Assembly (NCBI GenBank): GCA_902598405.1
Contig: CACKBQ010000010.1
Span: forward strand, 1-45,644
From: an uncultured Pelagibacteraceae bacterium
GTDB lineage: Bacteria; Pseudomonadota; Alphaproteobacteria; Pelagibacterales; AG-422-B15
DNA length: 45,644 bases
Reading direction: 5' to 3'
Every line of letters starts with the position of its first letter. The stretch's first letter is position 1. Below, piece after piece: positions 27,873 to 45,644 of this stretch. A program made the translations under genes and the position numbers. The notes under the pieces were generated by a model. The model searched no databases, had not been told where the DNA came from, and saw nothing but the letters and a program-made list of their open reading frames with translations.

Positions 27873-28892
27873 TTATATATAGTTAGCTAGCTCAGATTCA
27901 CACATTATTTTGACTAAGTCATCAATATTGGTTTTAGGGCTCCATGCAAGAGTCTTTTTTGCTTTTTTAGAGTTGCCAAATGTTCTATCAACTTCAGATT
28001 TTCTGAAGAAACTTTCATTGATTTTCACAATAATTTTATTTGTTTGTTTGTCGATGGCAACTTCGTTCATTCCTTTACCTTTCCATAAAATATTAAATCC
28101 ATAATATTTTGCCACTTTATTAATGAAGGTCTTAATATTATAATTTTTTCCAGACGAAATTACATAATCGTCTGGTTTTTTTTGTTGAAGCATTTTCCAC
28201 ATTGCTTCAACGTAATCAGCTGCATAACCCCAATCTCTTCGCACATATATGTTTCCAACTTGAAGGCAAGATTTCATGTTAAACTTTACTTGAGCTAAAT
28301 CACTTACTATTTTTTGTGCAACGAATTCTTTTCCTCTTAAAGGTGAGTCGTGGTTGAATAATATGCCTGAGCAACAGTATAATTTATAAGCTTCTCTATA
28401 TAAGTTTATCATCCAATGTGAATGCAGTTTTGAAATAGCATAGGGACTAACAGGCTGAAAATAAGTTTTTTCATCTTGAAGTTTTAATTTTGTTGTCCCA
28501 AACATCTCTGAGGATGAGGCCTGATAAAGTTTTGTTTTTTTTGAGAAGTATCTTATCGCTTCAAGAAGCCTGATAACACCAAGAGAATTTACATTGGACG
28601 TATAGACTGGACTTGTAAACGATTTATCAACAAATGATTGCGCTGCTAAATTATATATTTCAAAAAATTTTTCCTCTCTAATAACTTTGTTAATGTTATT
28701 TTCTTCTAACATTTCAAAGGGTATTATTTTAATTTCATTAGTAAGTTGAAGTTTTTTTAATCTCCAAAAATCGCGATTTGCATTTTGTCTTTCACCACCA
28801 AAGACTTGGTAGTTTTTTTCAAGAAGAAATTTCGCTAGATACGCACCATCTTGTCCAGAAACTCCTGTTATTAAAGCTTTTTTTCTTGCCAT
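27873..28892 (-). CDS. gmd: GDP-mannose 4,6-dehydratase-like enzyme
   Basis: Extended SDR enzyme forming a GDP-4-keto-6-deoxy sugar. The 339 residues have TGVSGQDGAYLAKFLLEK, NLAAQSFVDKSF, the active site ASSSEMFG (Ser127, Glu129), YAISK (Tyr151, Lys155) and FNHDSPLRGKEFV. Spacing of Glu to Tyr matches known Gmd. The RRSS-like nucleotide-binding segment is altered to ERQNANRDFWRL. Since a GDP-heptose pathway is encoded at 39679-42505, its substrate might be GDP-heptose (as for DmhA) rather than GDP-mannose; that is inference. It stands apart from the main polysaccharide operon. Confidence 0.85.
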   Translation of the reverse strand: MARKKALITGVSGQDGAYLAKFLLEKNYQVFGGERQNANRDFWRLKKLQLTNEIKIIPFEMLEENNINKVIREEKFFEIYNLAAQSFVDKSFTSPVYTSNVNSLGVIRLLEAIRYFSKKTKLYQASSSEMFGTTKLKLQDEKTYFQPVSPYAISKLHSHWMINLYREAYKLYCCSGILFNHDSPLRGKEFVAQKIVSDLAQVKFNMKSCLQVGNIYVRRDWGYAADYVEAMWKMLQQKKPDDYVISSGKNYNIKTFINKVAKYYGFNILWKGKGMNEVAIDKQTNKIIVKINESFFRKSEVDRTFGNSKKAKKTLAWSPKTNIDDLVKIMCESELANYI

Positions 28893-31226: not shown

Positions 31227-31712
31227 TTACTTTGCCTTTATTCTTTTTTTCCATCTCTTGTACTTTGGCCAATCTTCCTTAGATATTATATATCCAATGC
31301 AATTTAGAGATCCACAATTACAAACATGATCATTAAAATCATCTTTATCAAAATCATATCCATAATCATAAGAAAATTCATCGCCTTTTGATATTTTCTT
31401 AATTGACGTGATCCAAATTTTTCCCCGTACTATGTCTACCTCACAATTTGGAGAGCATGAGTGATTAATATATCTTGCTTTATTATATAATGGAGATCCA
31501 TCAATATCGTATCTGCTATTTAATTCAAAAATATAAACAGACCCCGTAGTTTTTGAGTTTAAATATCTTTTGATCCGGTTTTCTGAAATCTTATCGCCTT
31601 CAGCTTTTGTTACTTTTTTTCCTATGTATTCTATAATTTTTTTACCTTTTTTAATATCCTCCGTAGCAAATACACCTGTTCCATGAACTTTTGATTTTCT
31701 TACTTCCCACAT
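31227..31712 (-). CDS. SET-domain protein-lysine methyltransferase
   Basis: A 161-residue protein made up almost only of a SET domain plus post-SET zinc motif. Visible are KVHGTGVFATEDIKKG, YINHSCSPNCE (82-91; the Asn-His AdoMet contact), DEFSYDYGYDF (catalytic Tyr region), and CNCGSLNCIG (Cys131, 133, 138). It should methylate Lys on a protein, but the target is unknown. It is embedded in the polysaccharide operon, 3 nt after the wzz-like gene and 12 nt before the ligase gene, which is an unusual place. Confidence 0.88.
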   Translation of the reverse strand: MWEVRKSKVHGTGVFATEDIKKGKKIIEYIGKKVTKAEGDKISENRIKRYLNSKTTGSVYIFELNSRYDIDGSPLYNKARYINHSCSPNCEVDIVRGKIWITSIKKISKGDEFSYDYGYDFDKDDFNDHVCNCGSLNCIGYIISKEDWPKYKRWKKRIKAK

Positions 31713-38963: not shown

Positions 38964-39677
38964 TTAAATTGAAAATCCGGATTTTAATGCATCCTCATAA
39001 AACATCTTCACAGTGTCAAGTGAATATTTTTCTAAATCATAATTAATGAGATTAAGCTTGTTTAATAGTGAAGTAGTAACAGTAATAGCATGACAACCAA
39101 TCTCGTTTGCTTGAATTATGTTTAATAATTCTCTTGGACTTGCCCAAATTATTTCAGAATTACTATTTGTTTTTAATATTTTGAGAGATTCAGAAATAGT
39201 TTGACTAGGGTCTATTCCTGTATCAGCAATTCTACCAGCAAAGATAGATACATAGCTTGGTACATCTGGATTGAGTGATTTAGATACTATTTCTACTTGA
39301 TTAACCGTCATGATCGCAGTCACATTAACCTTAATGCCTCGATTAGTGAGGCTATTGATTAAGTCATGCGATGATTGCCCGCTTGTATTTGTTATTGGTA
39401 TTTTTACATATACATTTTCTTGCCACTCAGATATTTTGATTGCCTGTCTTTCCATTTCATTAAAATCGTCAGCAAATACTTCAAACGAAATAGGTTTATT
39501 TTTTATTTTCATCAATATACCTCTTGCAAATTTTTCGTAATCAGAAATATTAGCTTGCCGCATAAGTGTCGGATTAGTTGTTAGGCCTTTTATTAAATCA
39601 CTTTCATAAAGACGAAACATTTCTTTTTCATCGGCTCCATCAGCAAAAATTTTAATATTGAAATTTAAACTTTTCAT
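38964..39677 (-). CDS. Small transaldolase / fructose-6-phosphate-aldolase-like
   Basis: A 237-residue class I aldolase of the TalC/short-transaldolase group. The barrel motifs are IKIFADGAD (Asp12), GLTTNPTLM (31-39), the Schiff-base strand VYVKIPIT (Lys92), and SYVSIFAGRIADTG (141-154). Transaldolases make sedoheptulose-7-phosphate from fructose-6-phosphate and erythrose-4-phosphate; the close relatives FSA cleave fructose-6-phosphate. Its location 1 nt after the GmhB-like gene suggests it feeds heptose synthesis; this is inference. It is not the general pentose-phosphate enzyme cluster, which has tkt at 7358. Confidence 0.82.
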   Translation of the reverse strand: MKSLNFNIKIFADGADEKEMFRLYESDLIKGLTTNPTLMRQANISDYEKFARGILMKIKNKPISFEVFADDFNEMERQAIKISEWQENVYVKIPITNTSGQSSHDLINSLTNRGIKVNVTAIMTVNQVEIVSKSLNPDVPSYVSIFAGRIADTGIDPSQTISESLKILKTNSNSEIIWASPRELLNIIQANEIGCHAITVTTSLLNKLNLINYDLEKYSLDTVKMFYEDALKSGFSI

Positions 39678-39678
39678 T

Positions 39679-40203
39679 TCATGACATTAATATAAATCTA
39701 ATTGCTTCATTAATACTTTTAGACTTAAATTGATATCCTTTCGGTTTTTTTTCTTTATATTTATGGTCAATTAATATTGATTTACATTTACTATTTTCCG
39801 CTGCATCAATATCTCTCCATCTATCGCCTATAACAAAAGACTTTTCAAGATTTAGATCATACTTTTCTTTTGCAGTTATTATTAAACCATCTTTTGGTTT
39901 TCTACACAAACAATTATCAATATCATCATGATAACAAACAAATACATCATCTAATAAATATCTTTTTGCTACTTTTGAATTAATAATATCAACAATATTC
40001 TTAGAAACTATTCCTCTCGCTACATCTGGTTGATTAGTAAAAAGAAATAAATAATAACCTTGTAGTTTTAGTTTTTTAAATAGACATATTTCATTTGTAG
40101 TAAATTCAATATTCTTATTATCATTTATTGCAAACGGCTTTCCAGACTTTACTTTTGCTTTTATAAGGACTCCATCTCGATCAAAAAAAATTGCTTTTTT
40201 CAT
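39679..40203 (-). CDS. gmhB: D-glycero-D-manno-heptose-1,7-bisphosphate 7-phosphatase, GmhB-like
   Basis: HAD-IIIA phosphatase that removes the 7-phosphate from heptose-1,7-bisphosphate. The 174 residues have FFDRDGVLI (Asp8, Asp10), FTNQPDVARG, a zinc loop with Cys90, His92, Cys98 and Cys100 (ending CRKPKDG), and GDRWRDIDAA. HisB-type histidinol phosphatases share this fold, but HisN is encoded at 25187-25996 and the neighbours are heptose genes. In a GDP-heptose pathway it would act on the alpha anomer. Confidence 0.87.
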   Translation of the reverse strand: MKKAIFFDRDGVLIKAKVKSGKPFAINDNKNIEFTTNEICLFKKLKLQGYYLFLFTNQPDVARGIVSKNIVDIINSKVAKRYLLDDVFVCYHDDIDNCLCRKPKDGLIITAKEKYDLNLEKSFVIGDRWRDIDAAENSKCKSILIDHKYKEKKPKGYQFKSKSINEAIRFILMS

Positions 40204-40221: not shown

Positions 40222-40824
40222 CTATTTAATTTTTTCCGATTCCCACTTAGTTTCATTTGACTTTAATTTAGGGTGTGAGACTAGTAAATGCCACAGTACA
40301 GATTGAAAAGCTTCGGAATGAGGTGTAACTGCTTCACTATTCACATTTGGAATTATAATGCAGCGATTTGATTTTTCAGCAGCATAGCCATCGTTTCTTC
40401 CTACTATGGAAAATATTTTCGCATCTTTTTTCTGAGCAAAATCAATTGCATTAATGAGATTTGGACTAATGTTTTTTTTTAAATTTCCTCCCCCAACTGA
40501 AAAAATAAATATTGCATCATTTTTACCTAATTTACTCACCTTTAGCCATTCAATAAATATAGAATGCCAGCCTTCATCATTTGTTCTTGCAGTTAATTCT
40601 GAGACATTATCTGTAGCAGAGTATGACTCAATGCCAACAATTTTTCTAAAATCGTTAACCGCATGTGAGCAATTTCCAGCGCTACCACCTACTCCTAAAA
40701 AAAATAATCTTCCGCTATTTTTTTTAATTATTAATAGATCCTCAGCAAGTTTTTCGATCTGTTCAGGGTCTAACAGTTCAATTATTTTTTTTGCTTCATC
40801 AAGATGTTTCTTTGAAAATGACAT
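40222..40824 (-). CDS. Sedoheptulose-7-phosphate isomerase-like SIS protein (GmhA-like)
   Basis: SIS-domain protein of 200 residues. GmhA isomerises sedoheptulose-7-phosphate to D-glycero-D-manno-heptose-7-phosphate. Motifs include FFLGVGGSAGNCSHAVNDFR (41-60), a SYSATDNVSELTARTNDEG loop, IFIFSVGGGN, and NSEAVTPHSEAFQSVLWHLL near the C-terminus. It diverges from E. coli GmhA (GNGGSAADAQH), so the role depends partly on its neighbours HddC and GmhB. It starts 1 base inside the hddC stop. Confidence 0.82.
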   Translation of the reverse strand: MSFSKKHLDEAKKIIELLDPEQIEKLAEDLLIIKKNSGRLFFLGVGGSAGNCSHAVNDFRKIVGIESYSATDNVSELTARTNDEGWHSIFIEWLKVSKLGKNDAIFIFSVGGGNLKKNISPNLINAIDFAQKKDAKIFSIVGRNDGYAAEKSNRCIIIPNVNSEAVTPHSEAFQSVLWHLLVSHPKLKSNETKWESEKIK

Positions 40825-41528
40825 TATAAAAGCCTTTCTATGTATTTTTTCATGTCAGCTATTCCCTCTGGTTTACCAATCTCATAAAATCTCTCTTTAA
40901 CTATATACGGTATCATTTTATTTTCATTAATTAGTATTTTATAAACTTCTGATAAGTCAGAAATATTATTATTTAAGATAGGTATTATTTCCTCCTTTTT
41001 AAGTAAAGATAACCCATAATCAATAAAATTCATTTCTGAACTGTTTAAATTTTTGTCATATTTAAATATTTTATTTTCAGTATAGATCACATTACTTTTA
41101 TCATACATACTATTATTTTCGTATATTGTTAGGATATTGCTTTGTCTTTTATTCACAATAAAGAAGTCATAAACTTTTGAATAATTTATCGGTAAGTAAC
41201 TATCGCCATATTGAACAAAAAAATAATCTTCACATTTGTCTAATGCATTTTTTAAGGCTCCCCCAGTTCCCAATTGATTATCACCATCTAGTGAATAAGT
41301 AATATTCAAATCTAGATAATTAAAGTTTTTTAATATTGTAATTATTTGATCAGCTAAAAACCCCAAACATAAATGAACATTCTTAAATCCTTGATTTTTT
41401 AAATATCTTAATTGGTGAATAATAAATGGATCACCATTGATATCTATTAATGACTTAGGCTTATTTGAAGTTAGCGTTCCTAATCTGGTTGCTAAGCCCC
41501 CAGCAATAATTATAATTTGAAGTTTCAT
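40824..41528 (-). CDS. hddC: D-glycero-alpha-D-manno-heptose 1-phosphate guanylyltransferase (HddC-like)
   Basis: Nucleotidyltransferase of 234 residues that would couple heptose-1-phosphate to GTP to give GDP-heptose. The N-terminal signature is IIIAGGLATRLGTLTSNKPK (6-24), followed by LDGDNQLGTGGALKNAL and QYGDSYLPI. There is no C-terminal left-handed beta-helix. The choice of GTP over other nucleotides comes from the neighbouring hddA, not from the sequence alone. It overlaps hddA by 4 bases. Confidence 0.85.
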   Translation of the reverse strand: MKLQIIIIAGGLATRLGTLTSNKPKSLIDINGDPFIIHQLRYLKNQGFKNVHLCLGFLADQIITILKNFNYLDLNITYSLDGDNQLGTGGALKNALDKCEDYFFVQYGDSYLPINYSKVYDFFIVNKRQSNILTIYENNSMYDKSNVIYTENKIFKYDKNLNSSEMNFIDYGLSLLKKEEIIPILNNNISDLSEVYKILINENKMIPYIVKERFYEIGKPEGIADMKKYIERLL

Positions 41529-42505
41529 ATATTGATTTGCTTTGTACCTTCAAAGTCAAATCTGAATCTTAACTCGCTAAGTCCTAAACTGGATAATTTT
41601 TTTCTTAGAGTTCTTGCGTCATTTGCATAAAACAAGAGAAAACCGCCTCCTCCAGCGCCAACTACTTTACCCCCTATGGCACCATTCTTTAGGGCAATAT
41701 CATAATATTGATCAATTTTATCATTACTCATATTATTAGATCTTTTCTTTTTTTCTTGCCAATGTCTATTAAGTAAATCGCCAAATTTTTCTACATCTCC
41801 ATTCTCAAGAGCTAATCGTATATTTGAACACAATTCCTTTACAAAATGCATTTGCTCTAACATAAAACTATCTTCTTTACTTGTTTTTTTGTCTTGATCC
41901 TGAAGAATACTTGAGGCTTTTCTTGTATAGCCTGTAAAAAAAAGAAGTAGATTTTCTTCAAGATTAGTCAATGTTTCTGTCGAAATACTCAAATTTTTCA
42001 CTACTACATCTCCGTTTTTTTTTATTTCAAATTGTTTTATTCCTCCAAATGAGGATATGTATTGATCTTGTTTACCTATTGGTTCTTTTAAGATATCAAT
42101 CTCAATTTCACAAGCTGCCTCAGCTAAATCTCGTTTGCTTATATCAAGATACCTGTAAGAGTGAAGTCCCTTTATGAGAGCAGTTGTAAAACTTCCTGAT
42201 GAACCAAGACCAGTTCCTGAAGGTATGTCAGCTAATGTTGTAATTTCGATTTGATTATTTGAACTCTCATATTTTTTTAATACTTCTTTAAATATTGGAT
42301 GAGTGATATCCGATATTTTTCTCACTTTTTCGTTATCAGAATATTTAAGATATATTCCATTTTTAAATGGCTTAATTATGCTTACATATATATATTTATC
42401 TATTGCTGCAGATATGAATTCACCTCCAAATCGAGAATAATACGATTTAAGATCTGTCCCTCCTCCTCCAATAGAAATTCTTTGTGGACTACGAATTATA
42501 ATCAT
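41525..42505 (-). CDS. hddA: D-glycero-alpha-D-manno-heptose-7-phosphate kinase (HddA-like)
   Basis: GHMP kinase that phosphorylates heptose-7-phosphate at C1 to the alpha-1,7-bisphosphate. The 326 residues show RSPQRISIGGGGTDLKSYY at the start, the ATP-binding IPSGTGLGSSGSFTTALIKG (94-113), and the late IGGKVVGAGGGGFLLFY. The GGGTDL start is diagnostic for the HddA/fucokinase-like branch. It overlaps the oxidoreductase gene upstream by 17 bases. Confidence 0.9.
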   Translation of the reverse strand: MIIIRSPQRISIGGGGTDLKSYYSRFGGEFISAAIDKYIYVSIIKPFKNGIYLKYSDNEKVRKISDITHPIFKEVLKKYESSNNQIEITTLADIPSGTGLGSSGSFTTALIKGLHSYRYLDISKRDLAEAACEIEIDILKEPIGKQDQYISSFGGIKQFEIKKNGDVVVKNLSISTETLTNLEENLLLFFTGYTRKASSILQDQDKKTSKEDSFMLEQMHFVKELCSNIRLALENGDVEKFGDLLNRHWQEKKKRSNNMSNDKIDQYYDIALKNGAIGGKVVGAGGGGFLLFYANDARTLRKKLSSLGLSELRFRFDFEGTKQINI

Positions 42506-43475
42506 ATTGGTTATCCTTGTATATTTTCTCTATTACTTCCAAAGATCTTTGTGCATCATAAAGTGTTACAGAGGGCTCAGTATCATTAAGAATTGAATTA
42601 TAAAAATCGTCAATCTCTTTTTGCCATGATAAGTCCTCACCGTCAAAGATCCATTTTTTACTTTCAGGCGGACCCATTTCAGGAAGCATTTTGTAATATA
42701 TTAATTCCTCTGTTCCATAACTTCCTCCAAGACCATTAATTTTTAATTTCCCAACTTTTCCATAAATTTCTAGAGAAAACATATTTTTCCACTCTGTGCA
42801 GCTAACATGCAAAAAAGCAGTTTGATTATTTTTTGTTTCTAAAATCATAAACCCATTGTCTTCAACTTCCATATTCCAAAAATATGTTTTTGCACTTGAT
42901 TGAATAGTTTCAAACTCTGATTTAAAAAACCACCTCGATAAGTCTATTAAGTGACATCCTTGATCAATTATTTCTCCCCCACCTGAAATTTTTGGATTTG
43001 CCCTCCATTCCTTTTCATACCCTAATCTACCTCCATGTCCATATAAACCTCTAATGAACATTAATTCACCAAGCTTATTTTGTTCGACCAGTTCTTTCGC
43101 TTTCAAAATAGATGGGTGAAATCTGTGATTAAATCCTACATGTACTTTGATATTTTTTTCTTTAGAATATTTAATTAGGCTCAATATTTCATTAGAATTG
43201 ATTCCAGCTGGTTTTTCGATAAGCAAATGTTTATTTGCTTTGATGCACTCTAAGCTTATCTCATAAATTAAATTATTAGGAGTTGCTACAATTACTAAAT
43301 TTATTTCTTTATTATTAACTAGATCTTTCCAATTTGAATAAAAAGGAATATTTTTTAATTCTTTAGTAATATTTGATGCTGGTAAAATATCTGCGTATGC
43401 AATAAGTTTTCCTTTTCCTAGGTATTTAGCTCGCTTTTTACCAATTAAGCCTAGGCCAATTATTCCTATATTCAC
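42489..43475 (-). CDS. Gfo/Idh/MocA-family oxidoreductase
   Basis: NAD(P)-dependent sugar oxidoreductase of 328 residues. The N-terminal Rossmann motif is IIGLGLIGKKRAKYLG (5-20), then VIVATPN, the LLIEKPAG motif (84-91, with Lys88), and a C-terminal alpha/beta domain with GGGEIIDQGCHLIDLSRWF. The DQGCHLID His/Asp region is typical of catalytically competent members. Substrate unknown; it is one of three oxidoreductases placed directly before the heptose genes. Confidence 0.87.
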   Translation of the reverse strand: MNIGIIGLGLIGKKRAKYLGKGKLIAYADILPASNITKELKNIPFYSNWKDLVNNKEINLVIVATPNNLIYEISLECIKANKHLLIEKPAGINSNEILSLIKYSKEKNIKVHVGFNHRFHPSILKAKELVEQNKLGELMFIRGLYGHGGRLGYEKEWRANPKISGGGEIIDQGCHLIDLSRWFFKSEFETIQSSAKTYFWNMEVEDNGFMILETKNNQTAFLHVSCTEWKNMFSLEIYGKVGKLKINGLGGSYGTEELIYYKMLPEMGPPESKKWIFDGEDLSWQKEIDDFYNSILNDTEPSVTLYDAQRSLEVIEKIYKDNQYDYNS

Positions 43476-44350
43476 TATTTATCTCCCCAATCTAATTTAC
43501 GGTCCTTTCCGACTATTCGTCTTAGGGTGTAGACATCACTTTCTGAGACTTTTTCTATATTATCTGCCCACATTTCAAAGTTGTCCCATTGAGCGCTTAT
43601 CAGCTTACCAGTAATTTTATCACCTGCATCTGAAATTAAAAAATTTATTAAATCTATACCTTTTTGGAAACCTGCTCCACCAGTCTCTTTTTGCTCGACT
43701 GACCTGCTATAAAATTCATCTCCAACTTTTTTTGGATCAGACTCAAGTACTTTATCTAACATTTTAGTATTTAATGCACCAGGTGCAACTGCATTTATAT
43801 AGGTATTACAATTTTTTAATTCATATGACATGGTTTCAACAAATCTTACAATACCTGTTTTCGATACTGCATATGATGAAAAATTCGGCATAGGATTGGT
43901 TGCTCCACCCCCAGAAATTTGAATTATTTTACTTTTTTTTTGTGCCTTAAAAGTAGGTATCAAACTCCTTATCATTAAAATAGATCCAATTAAATTTATA
44001 TTTAGAGCGTAAACCCATTCATCCCAAGATACAGTGTCTATAGGTCCGATCGGTCCGTAAACTCCTGCATTATTAATTAATACATCGATCGAGGAGAATT
44101 CTTTTATTGTAAATTTAATGAAGCTTTCAACTTCTTCTTTTTGCGAGATATCTGTTTTTGATGATATAACTGTTTGATTATGTTTTTTTAACCTGTCAAA
44201 AGATTTTTGCATTTTGTCAATTTGCTCAAGGTTTCTGGCACAAAATGAAATATTTGCCCCATTATTAATAAGATTTTCTATGATATTTTTTCCAAACCCT
44301 TCAGTGCCTCCTGTTACAATTATATTTTTATTTTTGAAATCATATTTCAT
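43475..44350 (-). CDS. Short-chain dehydrogenase/reductase
   Basis: Classical SDR of 291 residues. VTGGTEGFGKNIIENL (12-27) binds the nucleotide, NNAGVYGP (93-100) is the structural motif, and Ser146, Tyr160 and Lys164 (YAVSK) form the catalytic set. After the Rossmann domain it carries an extra C-terminal part (about 250-291, ending DRKLDWGDK) beyond the usual 250-residue SDR. It shares one base with the downstream oxidoreductase gene and is 1 nt from the dehydrogenase homologue. Substrate unknown, probably a (nucleotide-)sugar. Confidence 0.88.
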   Translation of the reverse strand: MKYDFKNKNIIVTGGTEGFGKNIIENLINNGANISFCARNLEQIDKMQKSFDRLKKHNQTVISSKTDISQKEEVESFIKFTIKEFSSIDVLINNAGVYGPIGPIDTVSWDEWVYALNINLIGSILMIRSLIPTFKAQKKSKIIQISGGGATNPMPNFSSYAVSKTGIVRFVETMSYELKNCNTYINAVAPGALNTKMLDKVLESDPKKVGDEFYSRSVEQKETGGAGFQKGIDLINFLISDAGDKITGKLISAQWDNFEMWADNIEKVSESDVYTLRRIVGKDRKLDWGDK

Positions 44351-44351
44351 G

Positions 44352-45629
44352 CTAATTTGACCCTACGGTAAAATATTTTAATTTTTTCGATCTACTGATT
44401 TTTTTTAAATAAGAATTTTGGTCTAGTACTGTTATTTTTTTTCTATTAGTAAAAATTTTGCTTGTAATATTCTCATACTGTCTTGAATAAGTACACACAA
44501 CAATAATTTCACAATTTTTTAAAGTTTTCTTAAGATCGTTATGAACTTTAATTTTATCACTCCATCCTTTTGGCACTGTTTTGATGAGTGGATCAAAAAG
44601 AGTTAATTTTGCTCTTTTTTCAATTAGTTTATTGCCAATTTCAATGGCAATTGACCTTCTTAAAGTATCGCTATCTTCTTTATAAGAAAGCCCCCAAATA
44701 GCAATGTTTTTATCTACTAGTGTGGGATATAGTGTTTCAAGTTTATTTATGATCCATTTTTTATGAAGCTGGTTACTTTTTTTGATATTTAAAATTAATT
44801 TGTTATTATAAAAATTTCTTTTTTTATTTGCGATTAGCTTTAAAAATTCAACATCTCTTGCTAAGGTACCTCCTGCAAAGGGTCCTCCAGCTCTTAAATA
44901 AGATTTATAGCCAATTCTACCTTCTGATTTAATTCCTTTTTCAACTTCTTTATAATCTGCACCAACAATTTCACAAAGTGAAGCTATTTCATTTGCATAT
45001 GAAATACTCATTGCTAAAAATGAATTAATTGCATGTTTTGTCATTTCTGCAGACTCAGTCTTCATAAAAATAAGATTGCTACATATTGGCATTAATAAGG
45101 TTTTTAATTTTTTTATTAGTCTCTTGTTTTCAATACCAACTACCAATCTTTCCTGTTCAAAAAAAGATTTTACAGAATTGCCAAGTCTTAGATTTTCTGG
45201 GATCACAATAAAGTCTAATTTTAATTTATTTTTACTTTTAAACTCTCTTATTGTTCCTGCTGGCATCTGAGATGAAACTATTATTTTTGTTTTTCTGTTT
45301 AATATTGGAATTACTTTTTTAATATTATCTAAAACATAATTAATGTTTGAATGATCATTGTTATTGACCGGCGTATCGTAAGTCACCCATAAGAAGTCTA
45401 CTTGTTTTGGAAAATTTTTAATACTATCGATGAACTTTAATTTTCCTTTTTTTTGACCAATTTTAATTAAATTAGATACCTTCGGCTCAGCAATTGGTGG
45501 TTTGTTTACTTTTAAATTTTTGATAATGCTTTTGTCAAAATCTAGACCAACAATCTCATGATTTAGTTTTGATAAGCAGGCAGCAGTTACACTTCCTAAA
45601 TGCCATAGTCCTAAAACACAGATTTTCAT
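44352..45629 (-). CDS. UDP-glucose/GDP-mannose dehydrogenase homologue lacking the catalytic Cys
   Basis: Nucleotide-sugar dehydrogenase-family protein, 425 residues from the ATG at 45629 (MKICVLGLWHLGSVTAACLS); a TTG frame runs to the window edge but adds nothing. The three family domains are visible: N-terminal NAD domain with a WVTYDTPV strand, central helix with ESAEMTKHAINSFLAMSIS (Lys198), IPENLRLGNSV, and C-terminal IAIWGLSYKEDSDTLRRSIA. In classical enzymes the catalytic motif is GGSC-PKD; here it is GGPFAGGTLARD with Thr255 in place of Cys and Asp259 four residues later. The usual two-step oxidation to a uronate needs that Cys, so another reaction is likely. First gene of the operon within the window. 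Confidence 0.85.
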   Translation of the reverse strand: MKICVLGLWHLGSVTAACLSKLNHEIVGLDFDKSIIKNLKVNKPPIAEPKVSNLIKIGQKKGKLKFIDSIKNFPKQVDFLWVTYDTPVNNNDHSNINYVLDNIKKVIPILNRKTKIIVSSQMPAGTIREFKSKNKLKLDFIVIPENLRLGNSVKSFFEQERLVVGIENKRLIKKLKTLLMPICSNLIFMKTESAEMTKHAINSFLAMSISYANEIASLCEIVGADYKEVEKGIKSEGRIGYKSYLRAGGPFAGGTLARDVEFLKLIANKKRNFYNNKLILNIKKSNQLHKKWIINKLETLYPTLVDKNIAIWGLSYKEDSDTLRRSIAIEIGNKLIEKRAKLTLFDPLIKTVPKGWSDKIKVHNDLKKTLKNCEIIVVCTYSRQYENITSKIFTNRKKITVLDQNSYLKKISRSKKLKYFTVGSN

Positions 45630-45644
45630 TTTTTTAAAAGCCAA

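Follow-up and report, generated by a model that had tools for sequence, protein, structure and literature searches.

In the contig of an uncultured Pelagibacteraceae bacterium of the SAR11 group analyzed here over its whole length of 45,644 nucleotides (the window), a gene adjacent to one contig end encodes a protein that has the fold of nucleotide-sugar dehydrogenases, but carries threonine in place of the catalytic cysteine. Based on the residues that it shares with a clade of cysteine-less homologues and on the genes that accompany them, we propose, with a probability of roughly 0.6, that this protein is an NAD-dependent two-electron 6-dehydrogenase, which would act on a nucleotide-activated octose or heptose and oxidize its secondary C6 hydroxyl to a 6-ketone. 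We infer the substrate, most likely GDP-octose or GDP-heptose, as well as the ketone, the order of the steps, and the nucleotide.

The product of the gene, an intact open reading frame (Table 1), belongs by fold to the NDP-sugar dehydrogenase superfamily. All three UDPG_MGDP_dh Pfam domains, N-terminal, central, and C-terminal, exceed their cut-offs (E values of 1.4e-31, 4.8e-20, and 4.6e-18). The protein also passes the cut-off of TIGR03026, the general model for NDP-sugar dehydrogenases (269 bits, cut-off 189.8), but remains far below every equivalog cut-off listed in NCBIfam (for TuaD, 220.3 bits against 700). By sequence, 3gg2 is the nearest protein of solved structure (E 2.1e-54), and chain B of the same entry is also the best solved match (Z 42.7, 2.1 Å over 413 residues) of the AlphaFold model calculated from 14 relatives (mean pLDDT 89.4, pTM 0.84). 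The complete three-domain fold is common to this protein and to UDP-glucose 6-dehydrogenase and its kin (3gg2, BceC (2y0e), and human UGDH), with the active-site Lys, Asn, Asp, and first Glu also retained. The fold is likewise shared with GDP-mannose dehydrogenase (match to 1mfz), and the use of a GDP sugar may be shared as well.

Table 1. Positions of the dehydrogenase gene, of its active-site codons, and of the neighboring cassette genes in the window
Feature	Positions	Strand	Remarks
Cysteine-less nucleotide-sugar dehydrogenase	44352..45629	-	425 aa; ATG 45629-45627, stop ends at 44352; Pfam, NCBIfam, and structure match
Codons of Trp9 and His10	45600..45605	-	replace Gly9 and Tyr10
Codon of Gln121	45267..45269	-	replaces Thr118/Thr131 (SSQ instead of the STVP motif); Gln in 19/19
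Codon of Lys198	45036..45038	-	Lys204/Lys220; kept in 19/19
Codon of Thr255	44865..44867	-	in place of the catalytic Cys (Cys260 in S. pyogenes, Cys276 in human UGDH)
Codon of Asp259	44853..44855	-	general base Asp264/Asp280; kept in 19/19
SDR family oxidoreductase	43475..44350	-	Pfam adh_short, 147.6 bits; fused to the dehydrogenase in L006
Gfo/Idh/MocA oxidoreductase	42489..43475	-	Pfam
GHMP sugar kinase, HddA-like	41525..42505	-	197.5/600 bits (far under cut-off); closest solved 3k85
Sugar-1-phosphate nucleotidyltransferase, HddC-like	40824..41528	-	78.6/300 bits (under cut-off)
SIS-domain isomerase, GmhA-like	40222..40824	-	42.2/209.45 bits (under cut-off)
HAD-IIIA phosphatase, GmhB-like	39679..40203	-	94.1/178 bits (under cut-off)
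Transaldolase	38964..39677	-	TIGR02134, 312.5 bits (over cut-off 281.95)
Possible last five codons and stop of an upstream epimerase (WLLKK-stop)	45626..45643	-	suggestive only

The positions of Lys198, Asn202, Thr255, and Asp259 in the translation were confirmed by a script, and alignment with 3gg2 and 2y0e places their GG-S-C-F-P-K-D segment over A-G-G-T-L-A-R-D. When counted from the aspartate without gaps, Thr255 falls on the cysteine, with the glycine pair displaced by one residue and the aspartate at Cys+4 retained; in the predicted model, a helix begins at residue 255. A preliminary description of this stretch had recognized Lys198 as the conserved lysine, with Thr255 at the Cys position and Asp259 at Cys+4, and both the script and the alignment bear this out.

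The 19 cysteine-less homologues that were compared comprise 13 cellular loci, with hosts that include SAR11, rhizobial plasmids, Lawsonia, a Desulfobacterota bacterium, and archaea, as well as 6 viral contigs, and they are 33–43% identical to the window protein. In a tree of 68 rows, all 19 lie on one side of a single branch (SH-aLRT 99) with the 49 Cys-bearing rows on the other, although the tree is a quick one made without bootstrap and several long branches leave its inner order unsure. The Cys rows are matches to the cysteine-less family's own queries rather than a random sample; two of them are identical, and one (L002) was included in the tree and is absent from the residue tally, which thus has 48. 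Among the cysteine-less rows, L088 and L089 are nearly identical and L040 and L042 are close, and one of three Lawsonia records was used. Left out were repeated copies of loci, two Streptomyces loci, a distant Cys-bearing homologue from the bacterium's own genome (L003), and two short viral fragments, L092, which has GGTLGRD, and L093, in which the motif is not covered.

The Cys position is occupied by Thr in 18 and by His in 1 of the 19 cysteine-less rows, and by Cys in 48/48 Cys-type rows, with the reservation that the former were picked by the motif GG[T/H]L.RD, making the counts at positions 253–259 partly a matter of choice, which those at 9, 10, 121, and 149 are not. This count of homologues sharing a GGT-ARD type of motif, proposed in the preliminary description, indicates in the alignment that Thr255 is a trait of the family and not a chance mutation. 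The alignment was also searched for another active-site Cys, and no invariant Cys column is present among the 19 rows; the best conserved one, column 219 (17/19), has Ser in L006, and the Cys-type enzyme 3gg2 has Cys in the same motif.

Several other residues have changed together with the cysteine, as revealed by a tally of the 19 cysteine-less and 48 Cys-type rows, for which the roles and the S. pyogenes numbers were taken from PMC4794789. Kept in 19/19 are Gly7, Thr86 (Thr83), Ser120 (Ser117), Pro144-Glu145 (Pro140-Glu141), Glu195 (Glu201), Lys198 (Lys204), Asn202 (Asn208), Asp259 (Asp264), and Asn286 (Asn287). Of the residues that mark a four-electron NDP-sugar dehydrogenase, Lys204, Asn208, Asp264, and Glu141 are therefore each present in all 19 rows, whereas Cys260, Thr118, and Tyr10, the last two linked to water positioning and thioester hydrolysis, are missing. 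Compared with UGDH-type enzymes, Tyr10 is replaced by His (18/19) or Gln (1/19), Thr118 (Thr131 in the human enzyme) by Gln (19/19), the second Glu of NPEFLxEG at position 149 by Leu (18/19) or Val (1/19), Gly257 by Ala (10/19) or Ser (9/19), the Lys of PKD (Lys263) by Arg (19/19), and the second Asp of the TDD motif by Thr (17/19), Ala (1), or Val (1); at every changed position, 48/48 Cys-type rows carry the usual residue. The preliminary description had considered both the cofactor and the Lys motifs preserved, which holds for the latter, but only in part for the former. In the window protein, GLWHLG stands in place of GxGxxG, and while Gly7 is kept in all 19 rows and Gly12 in 18/19, Gly9 is replaced throughout (Trp in 17, Leu in 1, and Asp in 1). 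The exchange of Gly9 for Trp may indicate that the cofactor is used differently.

Cys260 and Thr118 are described as invariant in 229 enzymes; Cys260 catalyzes the second oxidation covalently and Tyr10 the hydrolysis of the thioester, whereas Lys204, Asn208, and Asp264 serve in substrate binding or as a base (PMC4794789). The residues kept are thus those of the first hydride transfer, and the pattern is the one expected of an enzyme that has surrendered the second half-reaction, yet it falls short of proof. The change of Thr118 need not concern the second step, since this residue also contacts an NAD-bound water (PMC4794789), and in human UGDH a Thr-to-Ala mutation lowers kcat by only 8-fold (PMC3184952). 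Nor is the loss of Cys alone proof of two-electron chemistry, since an adduct accumulates in human C276S and added aldehyde is still oxidized by C276A (PMC3184952). The latter result, together with the retention of Lys, Asn, and Asp, could accommodate an enzyme that, with no covalent step at Cys, still converts a primary alcohol into a uronic or aldehydic sugar. We consider this improbable, given that C276A does not carry the reaction from UDP-glucose to completion (PMC3184952), and that Tyr10 and the Thr of STVP are replaced together with Cys. The expectation of the preliminary description that full oxidation to a uronate should not occur is supported; the catalytic Cys is absent throughout the family.

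The genes that surround the dehydrogenase provide the second line of evidence. In the window, the genes from the SDR to the transaldolase lie downstream of it on the same strand (Table 1), and the cassette recurs among the relatives, usually with an NAD-dependent epimerase gene just upstream of the dehydrogenase. Upstream of the dehydrogenase, 15 bases remain before the contig end. Their WLLKK-stop frame overlaps the start of the gene as ATGA, and the similar C terminus of the L085 epimerase, NEWIFKK-stop, hints that the contig end may have truncated an epimerase gene. The rest of the bacterium's own genome (81% complete) yielded no close epimerase, the best match having 30% identity. Neighborhoods were counted under one rule for 19 cysteine-less and 22 Cys-type loci, some of which are cut by contig ends. 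A transaldolase is found beside 15/19 cysteine-less and 0/22 Cys-type loci, and the corresponding figures are 15/19 and 0/22 for SIS, 17/19 and 0/22 for the GHMP kinase, 17/19 and 0/22 for Gfo/Idh/MocA, 16/19 and 0/22 for SDR, 15/19 and 1/22 for the nucleotidyltransferase, and 15/19 and 2/22 for the epimerase. For the HAD phosphatase, 6/19 and 0/22 is an undercount: L005 and L007 carry the enzyme as a fusion with the nucleotidyltransferase, and weaker matches to it in L041, L084, L087, and L088 are uncounted. L083 has no transaldolase nearby, and SDR, Gfo/Idh/MocA, SIS, and transaldolase are absent from the stretch read in L058+L100; none of the 19 loci has fewer than two cassette partners.

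The organization of the cassette varies among its hosts. In a Pelagibacteraceae single-cell genome (L006, 6519-8729), the dehydrogenase and the SDR, the latter with its YxxxK motif, form a single 736-aa open reading frame. In two archaeal cassettes, the nucleotidyltransferase and the HAD phosphatase form one protein (L005:3782-5110, L007:2856-4196), and an additional small ORF, phosphoribosyltransferase-like by eye, is located between SIS and the transaldolase. Plasmid 3 of Lawsonia intracellularis (L041:10949-19300) carries most of the cassette together, with a transaldolase, a galactokinase, and a nucleotide sugar dehydrogenase annotated.

These data also bear on whether the protein is an enzyme at all. 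With the nucleophile gone and Gly9 of the dinucleotide motif replaced, it might be a pseudoenzyme or a regulator that binds NAD and a nucleotide sugar without turnover. This is very hard to reconcile with the conservation of Lys, Asn, Asp, and Glu145 in 19/19 rows despite only 33–43% identity to the window protein, with the presence of at least two cassette partners at each of the 19 loci, and with the fusion to an SDR bearing YxxxK, and we regard it as the least probable of the readings discussed here. A decayed gene is ruled out by the intact open reading frame and by the active-site residues kept across the 19 rows, in agreement with the preliminary description.

A set of partners of the same classes is known from the biosynthesis of the octose of lincomycin, for which a 2020 abstract is said to name 6-epimerization, 6,8-dehydration, 4-epimerization, and 6-transamination. 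That pathway comprises transaldolase LmbR, isomerase LmbN, kinase LmbP, phosphatase LmbK, and guanylyltransferase LmbO (PMC4351081), as well as epimerase LmbM, dehydrogenase LmbL, oxidoreductase LmbZ, and aminotransferase LmbS (PMC4351081; PMC12945683). LmbR combines ribose 5-phosphate with a C3 donor, yielding an octulose (PMC5854111), and GDP-octose is converted to GDP-lincosamide by LmbM, LmbL, CcbZ, and CcbS (PMC12945683). The company kept by LmbL and by CcbL of the celesticetin octose is thus found in the window and in the relatives, with the epimerase itself off the window contig; the likeness is drawn at the level of gene classes. Where lincosamides use the aminotransferase LmbS, the cassette has a nearly constant SDR, and no aminotransferase was found by Pfam among the eight window cassette proteins scanned. 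Two Streptomyces plasmids that gave kinase matches, L059 and L060, were considered as a source of an LmbL-like enzyme and rejected, since the features listed in their annotation include nothing UGDH-like; L059 (Streptomyces sp. SAT1) carries a hygromycin-like cluster with APH(7''), kinase, SIS, and HAD genes.

The pathway to GDP-D-glycero-D-manno-heptose (GmhA, HddA, GmhB, HddC) has four of the same enzyme classes in a row, and the kinase, nucleotidyltransferase, SIS, and HAD proteins of the cassette find their best or near-best NCBIfam matches in it; the closest solved structure to the kinase by sequence, 3k85, is a heptose kinase. GDP-D-glycero-D-manno-heptose could therefore be the substrate itself, with a ketone formed at C6 and reduced by the SDR from the other face, amounting to a two-enzyme C6 epimerization. 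We consider this unlikely, since none of the four enzymes (0/4) reaches its heptose equivalog cut-off, and the cassette adds a transaldolase, an epimerase, the cysteine-less dehydrogenase, an SDR, and a Gfo/Idh/MocA enzyme to that pathway. The dedicated transaldolase (15/19 loci) would be superfluous for sedoheptulose 7-phosphate if the latter is supplied by transketolase. Furthermore, the window protein, which differs from GDP-mannose dehydrogenases by its lack of Cys, also has Leu205 in place of their His217, a position where glucose enzymes have Leu (PMC4794789). Leu205 might be a weak hint of a gluco-type C2, to be taken as a lead only because the Cys-type controls have Leu too. The nucleotidyltransferase scores similarly for several NCBIfam subfamilies, and by sequence the nucleotide may be GDP or another.

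In the pyranose form of heptoses and octoses, C6 is a secondary alcohol, and its oxidation leads to a ketone, where it stops. UDP-glucose analogues with a C6 methyl group reportedly underwent slow conversion to ketones by UGDH in older work. Since a ketone at C6 cannot be oxidized further, Cys, Tyr10, and the Thr of STVP would be dispensable in an enzyme acting on such a sugar, and their replacements might also give space to the C7–C8 tail. The preliminary description had left a choice between a two-electron oxidation and an epimerization-like reaction; because the transaldolase, isomerase, phosphatase, kinase, and nucleotidyltransferase point to a heptose or octose, that choice can be narrowed, by inference, to a ketone as the two-electron product. 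Human UGDH with bound UDP-4-keto-xylose (9dh0) was considered as a precedent for a ketone and set aside, that sugar having been made by E. coli ArnA (PMC11713868).

In the 6-ketone pathway that we propose, the transaldolase would supply a ketose phosphate, which the SIS isomerase would convert to an aldose phosphate; the kinase and phosphatase would then yield the 1-phosphate, and the nucleotidyltransferase would activate it. The dehydrogenase would oxidize the C6 hydroxyl of the activated sugar to the 6-ketone, and the epimerase, the dehydrogenase, the Gfo/Idh/MocA enzyme, and the SDR would together remodel the sugar, with the ketone being reduced, presumably by the SDR acting in place of the lincosamide aminotransferase. 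The final sugar would enter a surface polysaccharide; such a role of the cassette in SAR11 is suggested by the glycosyltransferase-like and polysaccharide genes recognized by eye in the ORF lists of the window. The polysaccharide region also encodes, outside the cassette, a GDP-mannose 4,6-dehydratase-family protein (27873-28892, Pfam 387.9 bits) and, between ligase/polymerase-like and chain-length-like genes, a protein that is SET-domain-like by eye (31227-31712).

At the strict thresholds applied, few genomes have a member of the cysteine-less family. In overlapping samples, its members were found in 2/398 Pseudomonadota genomes, in 3/327 genomes of the class (a fourth match has Cys), and in 3/337 of the order, as well as in 1/57 genomes in the phylum of G147, 2/371 in that of G150, the Nanoarchaeota relative (two more matches have Cys), and 3/309 in that of G148 (fifteen more have Cys). 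A first genome scan had yielded four relatives at 40–43% identity, with GGTLxRD in 4/4, and later additions came from rhizobial plasmids, Lawsonia, three alphaproteobacterial genomes, a further Pseudomonadota genome, and, in one case, the phylum of the Nanoarchaeota relative. A viral scan with a single protein as the query gave no match, and one with an alignment gave 8 loci. Six IMG/VR contigs (L087–L091 and L094) combine the cysteine-less dehydrogenase with part or most of the sugar cassette and with glycosyltransferase-like genes. The phage dehydrogenase of L094 (7917-8948) is divergent: His occupies the Cys position (GGHLERD), and Gln replaces Thr118. L094 also encodes a major head protein (phrog_267), so at least this contig belongs to a phage that carries its own nucleotide-sugar genes. 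No account of a cysteine-less NDP-sugar dehydrogenase or of the associated cassette was found in the open-licence PMC literature.

We can suggest, more tentatively than the ketone itself, that the nine-gene cassette makes a nucleotide-activated octose, with a ketone-forming 6-dehydrogenase of the UGDH fold as its hallmark, and that it has been exchanged among SAR11, rhizobia, Lawsonia, a Desulfobacterota bacterium, small archaea, and bacteriophages. Octose chemistry resembling that of lincomycin may thus also constitute a cell-surface and phage pathway.

Uronate-forming dehydrogenases are annotated by their fold, and members of the cysteine-less clade, such as that of Lawsonia, are called nucleotide sugar dehydrogenases without having the acid-making residues; taken as a sign of uronate synthesis, such annotations are probably misleading for this clade. 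If the ketone reading is true, a four-electron enzyme would have been turned into a two-electron one where the substrate carbon bears a tail, and the signatures SSQ, PENLxLG, GGTLxRD, and TLRRS would reveal octose or heptose surface sugars in the genomes of cells and phages.
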